Source: Methanothrix sp. (GTDB lineage: Archaea > Halobacteriota > Methanosarcinia > Methanotrichales > Methanotrichaceae). Taken from it: DNA of 34,057 bases. The stretch is taken from the NCBI GenBank assembly GCA_003857025.1, contig RPOO01000004.1, forward strand, positions 1-34,057, in the 5' to 3' direction. A model generated the notes under the pieces. The model saw only the letters and a program-made list of their open reading frames with translations. It searched no databases and was not told where the DNA came from. This document shows, piece after piece, positions 19,166 through 26,663 of this stretch. How positions within the stretch are numbered: position 1 is the first letter of the stretch; every line of letters starts with the position of its first letter. A program made the position numbers and the translations under genes.

Positions 19166-19520
19166 ATCTCGCGACCGTAATGGACGGACTTGCAGGATAA
19201 CCGCTCGGAGCGATAGACGCTTTATGAGCGCGACTATCCTTCAATCTTTTATTTGATATTATTATTTGGTATTATTTATATGTTTTTCAAATTTAATTCA
19301 GTCTCGGACATTTGCCGCGCCGACGGCACCTATTTTTATCCCTGAGTTACAGGCTTTTGGAAGGAAAAGGTTTTATCAGTAATCAAGTAATGACATTCTT
19401 GTTCAAGAGTATGAAATCGGGATAATTGAGTTGGATCATTGAGCTAGTTCGTCAAATTGATCACCGGATTAGATCACTGAACCGGATCACCGAATCGGAT
19501 TGAAGAGAAGCAGGAGAGAG
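19166..19520. other. intergenic region before the large surface protein
   Basis: No gene seen. It holds AT-rich promoter-like sequence (TTTATTTGATATTATTATTT near 19250 and AAGGTTTTATCAG near 19367). A run of degenerate short repeats of the form GATCAC(C/T)GAA(C/T)CG fills the last 70 bp before the start codon. Confidence 0.45.
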
Positions 19521-22500
19521 ATGAACTTGAGGCAGGCCGCTCCACCACCCTGGCATCTGATCGCATGTGTTTTACTCCCAGTTTTCTCGCTGATACTCGT
19601 TCATCTGACACCGGACGCCAGTCGAAGCTATGCGGCGATATTGGGGCTGGCCTTGGTGATCCTGGTCCCCGGATATTTGCTGACGCTGGTGCTTTTCCCA
19701 GGCAATGCCGATCAGGACGCGCAAAAGAGGGTGCTGCTTAGCCTGGGATTGGACGCGGCCCTGGCAATTCTCGTCAGTCTGATCCTCACATTCACGCCGC
19801 GAGGGCTTGAGACGGAATCTCTGGCAACAATTCTTTCCATGCTGTGCTTCCTCCTTGCCCCTGTCGCCTACTTGCGCTGGTCGGCTCTTCCTCGCAGAAA
19901 GAGGTTCGTCATCGCTGCGGATAAAGGCTTTCGATCTACTGCCGCCACCACGCGGCCTGCTAAGTCCAGACCTCGGACGGGAAGGAAGAGCCGCGCCGCC
20001 TACATTTTTGCGGCATTGGTGGCCGTCTGCATAGTTGCCGCATTGGCTTATACCATAAACATGCAGCGAGGGGCAAATGAGCAGGGCTATACTGAATTTC
20101 ATGTCTCGCTAATGAAGGGCGAGGATGGCTTGAACCAGGCTTCGTTGCCGGTAGGAACTGCACTCCCGGCTCTGGCCGAGATTATAAACCACGAGGGCAG
20201 GGGCATCAACTACACACTGCAGTTGGCGGCAGAAGGCGCTGTCTTGTTCAGCAAAGACCTGGATCTGGAAAATAACCAGATTTGGAAAGGTCCGGTGGAT
20301 TGCATCATGGAAAAAACCGGCAGTCGCCAGAAGCTCGATCTGCTGCTTTATCGAGAGGAAGATTTTTCCAAGCCGTATCAGGAAGACCACCTCTGGGTCG
20401 ATGTAACTGAAAAGGGGGCTGGCAATGAAAGCGAATCTTTGCCGGTCGGCAATTCGTCATCGTTCAACTCATCCGCAAAGACGGCTGCGATAACGAATGA
20501 ACAGAGCGCTTCAGCCTCAGTCGTGAGCACAGCCAAAGCGAGCACACCAAAGAGTTCGACTGCTGCAAGCGGCTCATCGGCAGGCACGTCCTCGCAATCT
20601 AGCGCTGCGACAAAGAGCGCGAGCAGTACTGCCAAGAGCAGCAAGAGCACGTCGGCTCCGTCCGCTGCTGCCACTTCATCTTCGGCCCCCTCTTCGGCCT
20701 CACCTTCTGCCTCACCTTCGCCTGTATACTCATCGTCATCCACCTCACCAGTATCCACTTCATCAACTGCAACTTCGTCAACATCGACCTCACCAACAGC
20801 AACAGCGTCAGAAGCAGCATCATCTACATCATTTGCATCATCCGGCCAAAACTCGTCAGCCTCTGCACCATCAACATCAAGCGACCCACTTCTGTCAAGC
20901 TCGCCGTCAATGGCATCATCATCTTTGAGCAATGCATCTAACGCCGCACCCTCATCTTTATCGAATCAGTCATCAAATCAATCATCACCGTCGATCCGAT
21001 CAGCATCGGCCACAACGGCTTCGATCGCTCCAACCTCGGCAAACGAATCTACAAGAGTGCCGACAAAAGAATCGTCAATAGGATCGAAAACGAATGCCTC
21101 GACCGCGGCAAAATCATCTGCATCCCGCATGGTATCCAAGGATGACATCGGAAATCAGCCGCCGACTTTGAAGGATCTTCATGCGGATAGGTCCAGCCCG
21201 ATGGTTCCCGGCGCGACTATTATCTGGACTGCAAATGCCACTGATCCGGAATACGATCAGGTGCAATACAAATTCCTCCTCAACGGAGAGCCGGTAACGG
21301 TCTGGTCCAAGTTCAATTCCTGGAGCTGGACCACAAAGGGACTGTCGCCCGGCGACTACATGATCACCGTCCAGATCAAGGATGGAAAGCGTCTGCCCAA
21401 GGATTCTGCGGACTCTTCACTGAATGCGACCTTCACGCTTGCTTCTCCCAACCGCATTCCAGTCCTGCAAAGTCTGGTCGCCGGTCCGGCCAGCCCAAGG
21501 GAGAAAGGAACGAGCATAACCTGGACTGCAAAGGCCATAGACGCGGACGGCGACCCGATATCCTACAAGTTCTTCCTGAACGATCGAGAAGCAACAGGCT
21601 GGTCCTCATCCAATTCCTGGCTCTGGGACACGTCCTCTCTTGATCCCGGCGACTACAAGATAAGCGTCGTTGCCAAAGACGGCAAGCACGCCGCAGGAGA
21701 TAACTTCGACAGCTCCAAGGCAGCTTCTTTCACACTTCTGCAGCCTGCACCGACACCGCTGCCAAATCAAAGTCCAACTCTGACGGGCCTTCAGCCAAGC
21801 CCGGCCAGCCCGCAGAGTAGCGGCACGCGTATCACCTGGATGGCGAATGCCACAGATCCGGACGGCGATCAAATATCCTACAGGTTCCTGCTTGGCGGCA
21901 AGGAAGCGGCGGATTGGTCCAATTCCAACACCTGGGTTTGGGATACAGCCAAGGAAAACGTCGGTGATTATGATGTCGAGGTCCGGGTTAGAGACAACAA
22001 TCACGCGTCAGGCGACTCCTTCGACGATGCAAAGAATGCCAGCTTCAAGTTGCTCGCACCAAACCGGCCACCTGTTTTGGAGAGCCTGACGCCGGACAAA
22101 TCCAGCCCCCAGAGCCGGGGAACGACGATCTTCTGGAAGGTCAAGGCCGATGATCCGGACGACGATCGCATCCTGTACAAATTCCTCCTCGACGGTAAGC
22201 CGATGACCAAGTGGACCAAGTCCAATAGCTGGAGCTGGTCCGCCGGCGACTCACCCGCAGGAGATTACGAGATTCGCGTGCTGGCCAGAGATGCCAAACA
22301 TGCGGATGAAAACTCCCAAGATAGCTCCATGAATGCGACATTCACGTTATCCTCGCCAAATGAGTCGCCGGTTCTCAAAATGCTTGATGCCGACAGGGCC
22401 AGCCCGCAAAGTCGCGGCTCGCACGTAACCTGGACGGCCAGGGCCAGCGATTCCGACGGCGATCCGATATCCTACAAATTCCTGCTGGATGATAAAGATA

Positions 22501-23447
22501 TGACCGGCTGGACAACATCGGATACCAGGACATGGGATTCGTCGTCTTCCGACTCAGGCGAGCACAAGATCAAAGTTCTGGCCAGAGACGGAAAGCACGG
22601 CTCTGAGGATTCATACGACGGAGCGATGACAAAATCATTCACACTCACTACCTCCAGCAACATGCCCGTTTTGCAGTCGCTCAGCTCGAACCCGGAAAGC
22701 CCGCAAAATACCGGGACGAGCATTACCTGGACGGCCCAGGCCAGCGACACTGACGGCGATCCGATATCCTACAAATTCCTGCTGGATGACAAGGACATGA
22801 CAGGCTGGTCGACATCGGGCACATGGACATGGGATTCGTCATCTTCCGCCCCGGGCGACCACAAGATCAAAGCCCTGATCAGAGACGGAAAGCACGCCGC
22901 GGAAGATTCTTACGACGACTCCAAAGAGGCTGATTTCACTTTGCAGTCCTCTAATCAGCTGCCGACATTGGCAAACCTCACGCCGGACAAATCCAGCCCA
23001 CAAACGCAAGGCGTGACCATTACCTGGAATGCAAAGGCCACGGACCCGGAGGACGATCCGATCCAATACCGCTTCCTTCAGGACGGCAAAGCCGTGACCG
23101 GCTGGTCGGAATCAAATAGCTGGAGCTGGTCCACTGCCGAGGTTCCCGCCTCAAAATACCGCATTCAGGTCCAGATAAGGGACGGCAAGCACGCGCCGGA
23201 GAATTCCTTTGATAGATCTTTAGAGCAGAGCTTCACGCTGATCTCCGAGATCGATCAGCAGATAGAACAGCTGATGAAAAAGAGAAGCGCTGATGCTAAA
23301 AGCAAAGAGGGCTACCAGTCCCAAGACATAAAATTATCAGAGGAAACTGCATCAGGAGACAACAGCACAAAAGAGCGTGCAGTCCTCGGTAAGAGCACTC
23401 CGGAGCAAGATGCCCAGAAGTCCACCGAGCCACGAAGGTTGGGTTAG
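19521..23447 (+). CDS. giant surface protein: DUF1616-like membrane part, Ser/Thr stalk, seven Ig-like repeats
   Basis: About 1308 aa from ATG 19521, chosen over the TTG at 19500 because AGGAG lies just upstream. The N-terminus has several membrane helices (about 10-130), a basic linker and another helix near 165. The pattern and the following soluble domain (YTEFHVSLMKGEDG to LWVDV) resemble DUF1616 proteins. Next is a stalk of about 230 residues made almost only of Ser, Ala, Thr and Pro, mucin-like and probably glycosylated. Seven repeats of about 99 aa follow, each with an [ST]SPxxxGxxIxW opening, an acidic D.DGD.ISYKF turn that could bind calcium, a Trp-Ser-Trp strand and RDGKHA. The C-terminus is charged and helical. 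The likely role is cell-cell or surface adhesion. Confidence 0.8.
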   Translation: MNLRQAAPPPWHLIACVLLPVFSLILVHLTPDASRSYAAILGLALVILVPGYLLTLVLFPGNADQDAQKRVLLSLGLDAALAILVSLILTFTPRGLETESLATILSMLCFLLAPVAYLRWSALPRRKRFVIAADKGFRSTAATTRPAKSRPRTGRKSRAAYIFAALVAVCIVAALAYTINMQRGANEQGYTEFHVSLMKGEDGLNQASLPVGTALPALAEIINHEGRGINYTLQLAAEGAVLFSKDLDLENNQIWKGPVDCIMEKTGSRQKLDLLLYREEDFSKPYQEDHLWVDVTEKGAGNESESLPVGNSSSFNSSAKTAAITNEQSASASVVSTAKASTPKSSTAASGSSAGTSSQSSAATKSASSTAKSSKSTSAPSAAATSSSAPSSASPSASPSPVYSSSSTSPVSTSSTATSSTSTSPTATASEAASSTSFASSGQNSSASAPSTSSDPLLSSSPSMASSSLSNASNAAPSSLSNQSSNQSSPSIRSASATTASIAPTSANESTRVPTKESSIGSKTNASTAAKSSASRMVSKDDIGNQPPTLKDLHADRSSPMVPGATIIWTANATDPEYDQVQYKFLLNGEPVTVWSKFNSWSWTTKGLSPGDYMITVQIKDGKRLPKDSADSSLNATFTLASPNRIPVLQSLVAGPASPREKGTSITWTAKAIDADGDPISYKFFLNDREATGWSSSNSWLWDTSSLDPGDYKISVVAKDGKHAAGDNFDSSKAASFTLLQPAPTPLPNQSPTLTGLQPSPASPQSSGTRITWMANATDPDGDQISYRFLLGGKEAADWSNSNTWVWDTAKENVGDYDVEVRVRDNNHASGDSFDDAKNASFKLLAPNRPPVLESLTPDKSSPQSRGTTIFWKVKADDPDDDRILYKFLLDGKPMTKWTKSNSWSWSAGDSPAGDYEIRVLARDAKHADENSQDSSMNATFTLSSPNESPVLKMLDADRASPQSRGSHVTWTARASDSDGDPISYKFLLDDKDMTGWTTSDTRTWDSSSSDSGEHKIKVLARDGKHGSEDSYDGAMTKSFTLTTSSNMPVLQSLSSNPESPQNTGTSITWTAQASDTDGDPISYKFLLDDKDMTGWSTSGTWTWDSSSSAPGDHKIKALIRDGKHAAEDSYDDSKEADFTLQSSNQLPTLANLTPDKSSPQTQGVTITWNAKATDPEDDPIQYRFLQDGKAVTGWSESNSWSWSTAEVPASKYRIQVQIRDGKHAPENSFDRSLEQSFTLISEIDQQIEQLMKKRSADAKSKEGYQSQDIKLSEETASGDNSTKERAVLGKSTPEQDAQKSTEPRRLG
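21153..23241 (+). repeat. seven tandem ~297-bp coding repeats
   Basis: Units start near 21153, 21450, 21764, 22063, 22358, 22659 and 22954. They differ at the DNA level except units 5 and 6, which share an identical 38-bp block (22455-22492 and 22752-22789, exactly 297 bp apart). That points to a recent duplication or gene conversion. Confidence 0.75.
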
Positions 23448-23536: not shown

Positions 23537-24508
23537 TCACATCCACTCATAATGAGCCATGACCTCCGGCACGAAATCGTAAAGCAGGCTGTTTTCCACA
23601 TAGCCGAAGAATAAGCATCCCCGGCATTCCTGGACCGTCTTTCCTCGCCGCGTGGCGGAGTTTGTCCAAACATTGGCCAGGCCGTCTGAGACATTGCCCA
23701 GTGGTTCTTTGTGTACCCGGCAAGTCTCGACGGTCCCATCCGATGAGACATGCAGAACAATATCGCTGGCATGGCATTTGAAGCACGGATTTAGGGACTT
23801 GATCATAGAAAGATACGTCGAAGAGTTAATGATGGGTGCGCCGCCCTTTTTGAGCTCGATCAGGCGCGATATCGCCGCCTCGTATTGTGGACGATCGCGA
23901 ATTCCAATCGAGTTCCAGACATCTTCTCCGATGCCTTTTGATTCATGCATCGGCTCAAAGGAGATCCATGTTCCCAGGGACTCGGCCAGATGAACCAGCT
24001 CCTCCAGCTCATGCAGGTTCTTGCCGCTGATCACGCAGTTCATGAGTATCTCGTGGCCCGCTTCCTGCGCGACCTTGATGCCCTGCAAGACCTCTTGTAG
24101 ATCGATGCCCCTCAACTCTCGATAACTCTTGATCCCGTCCACGGAAACTGACAATAAATCAAGGTCGGGAAGCTCATGAGCCCTCTGGCGAAGCAACCGG
24201 CCATTGGTAATGAGCGAAGTGGTCAGGCCCAGGGATTTGGCATGCCTGAGAATATCCGGCAGATCGGGGCGCATCAGAGGCTCAACCGTCCAGGCGTTGT
24301 AAACACCGATGCCAAATGCTCCGGCATCTTCCAGCATCCGGAAGATCTCTGAAGTTTTCATCTCTCGCCCCGGATGCCGCCAGTACTCGCAGAAGCTGCA
24401 GCTCAGGTTGCACCGGGCATTTATGCCATGAGACAGAACAAAGGGCCTTCTTTTAACCCTCATCTGCCAGAGGGCCTTGGCAGCCATGCGAGGCGAAAAG
24501 GTTCTCAT
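23537..24508 (-). CDS. radical SAM protein with SPASM-like C-terminus
   Basis: 323 aa. The 4Fe-4S/SAM motif is CNLSCSFC (C33, C37, C40), followed by the barrel elements FGIGVYNAWTVEPLMRPDL, TSLITNGRLL and LLSVSVDG. The C-terminal third has further cysteines in the SPASM/twitch pattern (NPCFKCHASD, then TVETCRV, then ECRGC), which would hold extra iron-sulfur clusters. SPASM enzymes modify peptides or small molecules. No substrate peptide gene is evident nearby. It is the third gene of a minus-strand run after the STAS and RsbW-like genes, 90 bp downstream of the latter across an AT-rich spacer, so co-transcription is possible but not certain. Confidence 0.88.
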   Translation of the reverse strand: MRTFSPRMAAKALWQMRVKRRPFVLSHGINARCNLSCSFCEYWRHPGREMKTSEIFRMLEDAGAFGIGVYNAWTVEPLMRPDLPDILRHAKSLGLTTSLITNGRLLRQRAHELPDLDLLSVSVDGIKSYRELRGIDLQEVLQGIKVAQEAGHEILMNCVISGKNLHELEELVHLAESLGTWISFEPMHESKGIGEDVWNSIGIRDRPQYEAAISRLIELKKGGAPIINSSTYLSMIKSLNPCFKCHASDIVLHVSSDGTVETCRVHKEPLGNVSDGLANVWTNSATRRGKTVQECRGCLFFGYVENSLLYDFVPEVMAHYEWM

Positions 24509-24598
24509 AATCCAAAAAGCGCCTGTTTTGGCCTCTGCGTATTTTCATTCATGTTTAATCTTTCATTCGCATTTAAGTTTAAATTTGTATTTAATTTT

Positions 24599-25036
24599 TT
24601 ATTCATATTTGATAAGAGTGAGAACATTTTTCCCATCGATGTGCTTGTATTTTATGTCATCCACATAGCTCTTGATGAGATGAATTCCCAGGCCGCCGAT
24701 GGGCCTCTCTTCTGCACCGGCATCGGATATAGGCTTTATATGCTTTGTCGGATCGAAAGGAATGCCCCAGTCTTCAATGGTCAGCTTCATCCCGCGGTGC
24801 TTGCCATGAGCAATTCCGGCGGCGATTCTCATGAGCCCTTCCTGGTTGCCGTCCTTGCCAGCGTAGGCATAGAGTGCGACATTTGTGCATGCTTCTTCTA
24901 CCGCCAGCATGACCTCTAGGGTCTTTTGAGGATCAAATCCTCGAGAATTCATCAGCGCTTCGACGAACTCCGTAACAACTGGGATCTGATCTTTCTTTGC
25001 CGGGACTATGATCTCCTGGGCTGTAATCTCCTGCAT
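24599..25036 (-). CDS. RsbW/SpoIIAB-like serine kinase ATPase (anti-sigma-type)
   Basis: 145 aa, GHKL-fold ATPase. The N-box is EEACTNVALYAY (Asn52), the G1 box EDWGIPFDP (about 88-96), and the G2 loop PIGGLGIHLIK (112-122). In bacteria these proteins phosphorylate a STAS antagonist and bind a sigma factor. Archaea have no sigma factors, so the target here must be different. It lies 16 bp after the STAS gene, which is its expected substrate, as in rsbV-rsbW operons. The full set of nucleotide-binding motifs suggests an active kinase. Confidence 0.85.
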   Translation of the reverse strand: MQEITAQEIIVPAKKDQIPVVTEFVEALMNSRGFDPQKTLEVMLAVEEACTNVALYAYAGKDGNQEGLMRIAAGIAHGKHRGMKLTIEDWGIPFDPTKHIKPISDAGAEERPIGGLGIHLIKSYVDDIKYKHIDGKNVLTLIKYE

Positions 25037-25052
25037 ACACTTATTTTAGCTT

Positions 25053-25415
25053 TTAATGGGATTTCGCGTGCAAAAGTGCCTCTGCCTGGCCCGGAAAGAT
25101 GGCGAACAGCCTCGTGAATCCGGTTATCTCAAAGACCTCCTTCACAAAAGGCTGCATAGATACCAGCAGCAGGTCACCCTTCTTTGGCTTCACCTTCTTC
25201 AAGGCTGCCAGCATAACCCGCAAGCCCACGCTGCTGACATACTCAACGCCGCCCAGGTCAAGCACTATCATCGACTGATTCTGCTCGATCAGGTCATTCA
25301 ATACGGTTTCCAGATCCCGGGATGTAGCGGCATCGATTCTCCCGGAAACGGAGACGACTGGAACATCATTGATAGTAGTCTGGCTTATCTCCATGTTTTC
25401 ACATTCTAAATTCAT
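25053..25415 (-). CDS. STAS-domain anti-sigma-antagonist-type protein (RsbV/SpoIIAA-like)
   Basis: 120 aa, a single STAS domain. VVSVSGRIDAATSRDLE gives the first strands and helix. VLDLGGVEYVSSVGLRVML is the switch region, with Ser62 at the phosphorylated position of RsbV/SpoIIAA. An ATG at 25394 (MEISQ) is an alternative start and would suit the family length better. An AT-rich ATAAACGTATAAG upstream could be the TATA box and would give a very short leader for the first ATG. It is first in the minus-strand cluster with the RsbW-like kinase 16 bp downstream. The two form a probable partner-switch module. Confidence 0.87.
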   Translation of the reverse strand: MNLECENMEISQTTINDVPVVSVSGRIDAATSRDLETVLNDLIEQNQSMIVLDLGGVEYVSSVGLRVMLAALKKVKPKKGDLLLVSMQPFVKEVFEITGFTRLFAIFPGQAEALLHAKSH

Positions 25416-25594: not shown

Positions 25595-25721
25595 TCAAAC
25601 GCAAAACTTCAAATGGAAATGCTAGAAGATGAGATAATGTTATATAATGATATGAATCCAGACAATAATATGAATACTGCATTACTGCGCGGATGAAATC
25701 GCAATATTGCTGAAGACTATT

Positions 25722-26663
25722 ATGCTTGACTTGATTGCCCAGACTCTGGAAGATACCATCACTACCATGACCACGGTATTTGTAATGCTCTTTATTACCG
25801 GGATCATGACTGAAATGGGCATGTTCTTTCGTCTCTCGCACCTTGCCAGACCGCTGGCATCGGTTTCGCATCTTCCGTCTGCGGCAGCCTCAACCTTCGT
25901 GATCAGCCTGGGATCGGCACTGGCCGCCAACACTATGATCGCCAGGCTAAAGAACGAAGGTCACCTGACGGAGCGCCAGGCATTCTTCTCCGCCATCATG
26001 AACAGCGTTCCCGTCTACTTCCGCGAGCTTTTCACATACCAATTGGCCTTTGTGGTGCCGGTTCTTGGGCTCTTCGTGGGAGGGGTTTATGCAGTGGTAG
26101 CTGTCTCCACAGGCATCATAAAGCTGCTCTTGGTTATGATCCTGGGAAGGGTATATCTCGATGCAGATTCGATTGAATCACATCATGTGCTCGAATCTCA
26201 GGAGAAGAAAAATCTGTTGGAGTCTGCCATAAAATCTCTACAGGGGCAGAAATGGATATTCTTCCGCATGACTGCTCTTTATTTTATCATGACCTTCCTC
26301 GTCCTCTACCTGAGCGAGGAAGGCATCTTGCAGTCTTTGGATGTCCTGCCTGTCGCACATTTTTTCAAAGTTCCTCCAGAAACCGTGATCCCTCTGACCA
26401 TTTATGTGGCCAGCCCAAGAGCTGGAATAACCCTTCTCGGACCCTTGATCCAGAACGGCGGCATAACGGAGACGAAGGCGTTAATCGTCCTGATGCTGGG
26501 GAGCCTCTTCATGCTGCCTTTCTACTCCATCAGATCGCTGATGCCCAACTACACTTCCGTCTTCGGCATGAAGCTTGGTCTCTCACTGGTTGCCGTTTCG
26601 ACGGGAATCAGCGTCCTAGTCAGGCTCATGGTGCTGGTGGCGCTGCTGTTAGCGACGGGATAG
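25722..26663 (+). CDS. nucleoside-recognition (Gate) domain membrane protein
   Basis: About 313 aa from ATG 25722; the track's TTG at 25707 is five codons longer. Eight or so hydrophobic helices occur with the Gate-domain signatures GIMTEMGMFFRLSHLARPLA, SLGSALAANTMIARL and, in the second half, VASPRAGITLLGPLIQNG. Gate domains occur in FeoB, nucleoside carriers and spore-maturation proteins and line a transport path. In methanogens, free-standing copies are common but their substrate is not known. It is preceded by the 43-bp repeats and TATATAATG near 25640, and followed by a T-tract terminator. Confidence 0.8.
   Translation: MLDLIAQTLEDTITTMTTVFVMLFITGIMTEMGMFFRLSHLARPLASVSHLPSAAASTFVISLGSALAANTMIARLKNEGHLTERQAFFSAIMNSVPVYFRELFTYQLAFVVPVLGLFVGGVYAVVAVSTGIIKLLLVMILGRVYLDADSIESHHVLESQEKKNLLESAIKSLQGQKWIFFRMTALYFIMTFLVLYLSEEGILQSLDVLPVAHFFKVPPETVIPLTIYVASPRAGITLLGPLIQNGGITETKALIVLMLGSLFMLPFYSIRSLMPNYTSVFGMKLGLSLVAVSTGISVLVRLMVLVALLLATG

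Follow-up and report, generated by a model that had tools for sequence, protein, structure and literature searches.

A metallo-beta-lactamase-fold protein as candidate target of an RsbV/RsbW-type partner switch in Methanothrix and other methanogens

Bacteria use kinases of the RsbW type, together with phosphorylatable switch proteins of the RsbV type, to control sigma factors. To our knowledge, sigma factors are absent from archaea, and the presence of such a pair of genes in an archaeal genome raises the question of what the pair controls. The case analyzed here lies in a window of 34,057 nucleotides (the whole stretch of DNA that was studied) from a Methanothrix species, a member of lineages responsible for a large share of biological methane production worldwide. 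A first-pass annotation of the window had described a sigma-type partner switch in an archaeon, had left its output open, which we judge to be the right question, and had put forward the radical SAM-SPASM enzyme encoded downstream as a possible effector or regulated product. SpoIIAA, SpoIIAB and SpoIIE proteins were described in Methanomicrobiales by Anderson et al. in 2009, who could not determine their targets from sequence and stated that such proteins were absent outside that order (PMC2686161). An archaeal switch has already been reported, so its existence is not fully new.

All genes of the locus are encoded on the reverse strand. The first (25053..25415) specifies an RsbV/SpoIIAA-like STAS protein of 120 aa (Pfam STAS, E=4e-21) that scores above the curated cut-off of the NCBIfam model TIGR00377 (ant_ant_sig, anti-sigma factor antagonist) and consists of a single, stand-alone domain, as is the case with proteins of the RsbV-SpoIIAA type. 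Its predicted phospho-acceptor, Ser62, is found in the motif YVSSVGLR at the expected position, two residues before the conserved Gly-Leu, and every one of the 91 STAS domains in the alignment has the pair Ser61-Ser62. The ORF coordinates place a gap of 16 bp (25037..25052, same strand) between this gene and the one downstream of it (24599..25036), which encodes an RsbW/SpoIIAB-type serine kinase of 145 aa with the GHKL fold (HATPase_c_2, E=4.7e-25). In the alignment, the N-box residues Glu48 and Asn52 of the kinase are invariant, Asp89 and the glycines of the G2 box are nearly so, and the G2 box itself (GGLG, residues 114-117) is intact; the N-box Glu and Asn, G1 Asp and G2 glycines of GHKL enzymes are all in place. 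The best solved relatives are SpoIIAA-type STAS proteins in one case and the RsbW structure 6m36 of the PDB in the other. The kinase falls below the NCBIfam equivalog cut-offs for RsbW/SpoIIAB (55 against 145, 46 against 155 and 25 against 135 bits), and for this reason we call it RsbW-like from its sequence and make no call of orthology. Coordinates, Pfam matches, Ser62 and kinase motifs agree with the initial description of a STAS protein with its phospho-serine in place 16 bp from an intact kinase and, judged by these sequence features, they form a real and intact pair, well past anything that chance would produce. The two genes are likely to form one transcript. They are followed by a spacer of 90 bp with an A+T content of 71% (24509..24598), which could provide space for a separate promoter, and by the gene of the radical SAM-SPASM protein (23537..24508; 323 aa; Pfam Radical_SAM, E=6.3e-20; SPASM, E=5.2e-5). 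On the other side of the locus, divergent from the STAS gene, is an ORF for a membrane-protein-like product of 318 aa (25707-26663) that has no Pfam or NCBIfam match.

Elsewhere in the window genome we found the further components that a partner switch would need. The genome encodes one STAS domain and one stand-alone RsbW-type kinase, three SpoIIE-type proteins and one metallo-beta-lactamase (MBL) protein. The search for a PP2C/SpoIIE phosphatase that had been suggested with the first annotation was therefore productive, all three SpoIIE-type proteins being encoded on contigs other than that of the STAS/RsbW pair and two of them having intact metal ligands. These two, one on contig C136 with three PAS domains and one on C164 with a partial 5TM-LYT and a PAS domain, keep the metal-binding Asp residues and combine a PP2C/SpoIIE phosphatase with sensor domains in the same genome as the switch. 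The third, on C195 (L003:729-2792, genome G000), has dCache and HAMP domains and has lost three of the metal-ligand Asp residues (replaced by Gly, Asn and Ser); it is probably an inactive pseudophosphatase with another role. Homologues with the same dCache-HAMP-SpoIIE architecture, of 630-740 aa, occur in most genomes of the family, where the protein is near-universal and is also found when RsbW is absent. STAS protein, kinase and serine phosphatase occur together in this methanogen, as in the system of Anderson et al.

The Methanotrichales relatives of the window species (the family, 50 genomes) offer a view of what accompanies the switch. Their RsbW loci consist of SpoIIE-STAS-RsbW or STAS-SpoIIE-RsbW operons, or of SpoIIE-RsbW fusions in which a sensor protein of 1000-1400 aa is followed by two separate STAS genes; in several Methanothrix relatives the single chain is of the type CHASE4-HAMP-PAS-SpoIIE-RsbW, again with two STAS genes after it (L045:4425-8624, L048:4052-8251, L050:8936-13135 and L052:6110-9160). 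The most recurrent other gene near these loci encodes an MBL protein of about 575 aa, usually divergent from the operon and sometimes inside it. Presence of RsbW and MBL agrees in 44 of the 50 genomes (two-by-two table 20/3/3/24, p=6.6e-8, a value that, like the others of these surveys, is inflated by relatedness, genome counts not being independent), and the exceptions are mostly incomplete bins or truncated contigs; restricted to the 33 good genomes, the table reads 11/2/0/20. On the family tree, RsbW, MBL, STAS and the operon class of SpoIIE have been gained or lost together about 12 times. Taken alone, a tree-based test finds that MBL follows RsbW in five of six well-supported independent pairs and never goes the opposite way (p=0.06). 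At one locus (L054, genome G047), stops or frameshifts interrupt the SpoIIE gene, the RsbW gene and the MBL gene alike; here the module is decaying as a unit. The MBL protein of the window genome has 596 aa and is encoded on contig C30 (L111:2772-4562); its linkage to the switch, which lies on a different contig, is one that we infer from these relatives.

A wider scan, with one genome per species, extended this distribution to Methanotrichales, Methanomicrobiales, one member of the Methanomassiliicoccales and a few bacteria; relatives in viral contigs were not found. In a survey of 217 genomes drawn evenly from the phylum, 26 carry the MBL protein and 40 carry RsbW, and RsbW is present in every one of the 26 (p=8e-24, with the same inflation by relatedness). 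Because kinase and MBL gene are far apart in several of these genomes (e.g., G187, G061, G168, G175 and G251), the association is not just a matter of shared location. The remaining 14 of the 40 RsbW-bearing genomes have no MBL protein, and other outputs must therefore exist. Where the MBL gene is linked to the switch, the linkage is close: among archaeal MBL loci flanked by at least 5 kb upstream and at least 1 kb downstream, a STAS, RsbW or SpoIIE gene lies within 5 kb in 37 of 37, and the corresponding count for bacterial loci is zero of five. In Methanomicrobiales, the STAS gene is immediately upstream of the MBL gene and overlaps it, the length of the overlap being approximate as the start codons are predicted, and in the Methanomassiliicoccales locus (L192) the gene order is SpoIIE-RsbW-STAS-MBL. 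Finally, two Methanolinea-like species (L153 and L245) have MBL and STAS fused in one protein of 694-696 aa; since both species, 75% identical to each other, carry the fusion, a single assembly error is ruled out. By co-occurrence, adjacency and fusion, the MBL protein is strongly associated with the switch and is a candidate for its third partner. Bacterial relatives of the protein, found without a switch, adjoin MFS transporters (L198, L201) or a PLD-type enzyme (L190), neighbours that could give hints of a substrate.

The MBL protein comprises an N-terminal domain with the metallo-beta-lactamase fold and about 300 C-terminal residues without a Pfam match. The metal ligands (HxHxDH, His, Asp, His) show no change in any of the 45 sequences compared, from archaea and bacteria, as expected for an active hydrolase, and the protein is predicted to be a zinc hydrolase. 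AlphaFold2 models had a mean pLDDT of 93 for the L153 fusion and of 92 for the C-terminal domain, which was modelled by itself after a first Foldseek run had been swamped by MBL matches. The best PDB matches of this domain are DHp-CA structures of histidine kinases (Foldseek, E about 1e-7, prob 1.00), with whole-chain TM-scores that are modest (0.33-0.43 by query), and the packing of its subdomains probably differs from that of histidine kinases. Pfam detects neither HisKA nor HATPase in the domain, and conserved phospho-His, N-box Asn, DxG and G boxes were not found there. We read it as a pseudo-histidine kinase, DHp-CA-like in fold and missing the catalytic motifs.

We consider it probable that a pair formed by a sensor phosphatase and a kinase sets the phosphorylation of the STAS protein, and that the STAS protein controls the MBL-pseudokinase hydrolase. 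This reading is built on components that are present and intact and that occur together, with genes that are adjacent, overlapping or fused; from this we infer phosphorylation, binding and the direction of control. SpoIIE/RsbU-type phosphatases with PAS, 5TM-LYT or CHASE4 sensors and the RsbW-type kinase would together determine whether Ser62 is phosphorylated, and the output would be an enzyme and not a sigma factor, namely the zinc hydrolase of C30 with its C-terminal pseudo-histidine-kinase domain. The STAS protein would bind the MBL enzyme and set its activity in one of its two states, probably when it is not phosphorylated; in the other it would either not bind or be held by RsbW. Once released from RsbW, it would dock on the MBL protein, perhaps at the kinase-like domain. 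A more specific version, which we put forward tentatively and with somewhat less than even confidence, is that the STAS protein alternates between a live kinase, RsbW, and a dead one, the DHp-CA domain of the hydrolase, which would serve as a decoy docking platform; a module for the control of transcription would in this way have become one for the direct, post-translational control of an enzyme. A profile-profile comparison of the C-terminal domain with the RsbW family gave no sequence similarity (probability 0.6%), and the decoy idea therefore draws on the fold and not on the sequence.

The components of the switch are those of the RsbV/RsbW/RsbU (sigma-B) and SpoIIAA/SpoIIAB/SpoIIE (sigma-F) systems of Bacillus subtilis: a phospho-Ser STAS protein, a GHKL serine kinase and a PP2C/SpoIIE phosphatase, encoded by adjacent genes. 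Unlike in B. subtilis, we found no Sigma70 region 2 protein, and the candidate output that goes with the switch is an enzyme of the MBL fold. In Mycobacterium tuberculosis, Rv1364c combines PAS, PP2C, kinase and STAS in a single chain (PMC10950880); several Methanothrix relatives likewise fuse sensor, SpoIIE and RsbW in one protein, although their STAS proteins are separate and the output is not SigF. Bacteria also have partner switches that act on something other than a known sigma factor, such as SypA/SypE of Vibrio fischeri and BtrV/BtrW of Bordetella, and in the Syp system the STAS protein SypA is the downstream component, acting on a target not yet named (PMC8256260, PMC10120452). By analogy, SypA would be the nearest functional parallel, with the difference that the candidate target is here encoded next to the STAS protein, overlapping it or fused to it. 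Among methanogens, the system of Anderson et al. has the same three components; we find these also in Methanotrichales and in one member of the Methanomassiliicoccales, and the MBL-pseudokinase gives the system a named candidate target. Searches of open-access papers brought up no archaeal partner switch directed at an MBL protein. The switch adds new lineages to a reported system and, as far as this literature shows, its proposed target is new. By comparing hundreds of genomes we can name one specific and testable target for a switch known since 2009 and, if this target were confirmed, partner switching would be a general device for the control of proteins, one that archaea can couple to an enzyme.

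Other outputs have to be weighed against this one. The radical SAM-SPASM enzyme is the candidate suggested by the window itself, where its gene is adjacent to the kinase gene on the same strand. The same arrangement is found in G028, and decayed STAS genes beside the radical SAM gene in G019, G037 and G023 indicate that it is older than the window species. The proposed three-gene order goes no further, however: the radical SAM gene adjoins the kinase gene in the window species and G028 only, and was not close to any other switch locus examined. It is present as a single copy in 43 of the 50 family genomes (32 of the 33 good ones), with no association with RsbW (Fisher p=0.69). In G019, G037 and G023, where RsbW and the MBL protein were not found, the gene is intact at 79-80% identity and follows directly on what is left of a STAS gene, interrupted by stops or frameshifts; the radical SAM gene has outlasted the switch. 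Because it occurs regardless of the switch and persists after the switch is lost, we reject it as effector and judge it a core gene of the family, a bystander outside the switch; the chance that it is an effector or regulated product after all seems very slight. A steadier neighbour of this gene is a DUF1616 protein, encoded at 19500-23447 of the window with a Ser/Thr-rich linker and several Ig-like repeats, whose relatives adjoin the radical SAM gene in G019, G037, G023 and G003. A true anti-sigma/anti-anti-sigma pair that controls transcription through TFB, TFE or a sigma-region-4-like HTH protein would account for the resemblance of RsbW and STAS to bacterial sigma regulators, and HTH proteins matching Sigma70_r4 do exist in the window genome. 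Yet such matches occur in all archaeal controls and are generic for archaeal HTH proteins, and a Sigma70_r2 domain, as expected of a partner of RsbW or SpoIIAB, was not detectable in the window genome (91% complete assembly), in line with the original view of a sigma-type switch in an archaeon without a sigma factor. Anderson et al. argued that the binding regions are missing (PMC2686161), and we saw no transcription-factor gene recurring beside the annotated switch loci; we regard transcriptional control as improbable.

Control of the MBL-pseudokinase by the STAS protein could also be read in reverse, with the MBL protein placed upstream as a sensor or scaffold that gives input to the switch; the kinase-like nature of its C-terminal domain speaks for this, and an upstream role would give the same linkage. 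This is unlikely, if slightly less so than transcriptional control, for the SpoIIE proteins already carry sensor domains, the MBL active site shows the full conservation expected of an enzyme, and overlap and fusion involve STAS, the mobile component. Against the MBL protein as output stands the existence of its bacterial relatives without a switch and, against its being the sole output, the linkage of another protein, STAS-X, to RsbW in Methanomicrobiales, where its gene is part of the RsbW operon. STAS-X could even be the main output and the MBL protein one branch only, or the main output could be a protein such as a xanthine/uracil permease, whose gene lies beside RsbW in G049, G009 and G011; the 14 genomes with RsbW and no MBL protein would be in keeping with either. 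The window genome has one STAS domain, hence no STAS-X, and the permease recurs at three loci only, which makes a main output of this kind as remote a prospect as the radical SAM enzyme. The hydrolase remains our preferred target in the genomes that carry it, with the 14 genomes and the position of STAS-X beside RsbW indicating further outputs. The permease-family genes follow or face a STAS-SpoIIE-RsbW operon (L044:9053-10762, L055:7708-9477 and L057:8201-9907), and one of the three genomes, G049, is without the MBL protein. STAS-X, which may be a second output, has 420-440 aa, with an N-terminal STAS domain and a C-terminal domain of about 320 aa that has no Pfam match, and its gene adjoins RsbW in Methanomicrobiales at L170:3886-5211, L252:3692-4987, L253:1615-2934, L254:5156-6418 and L247:2337-3650.
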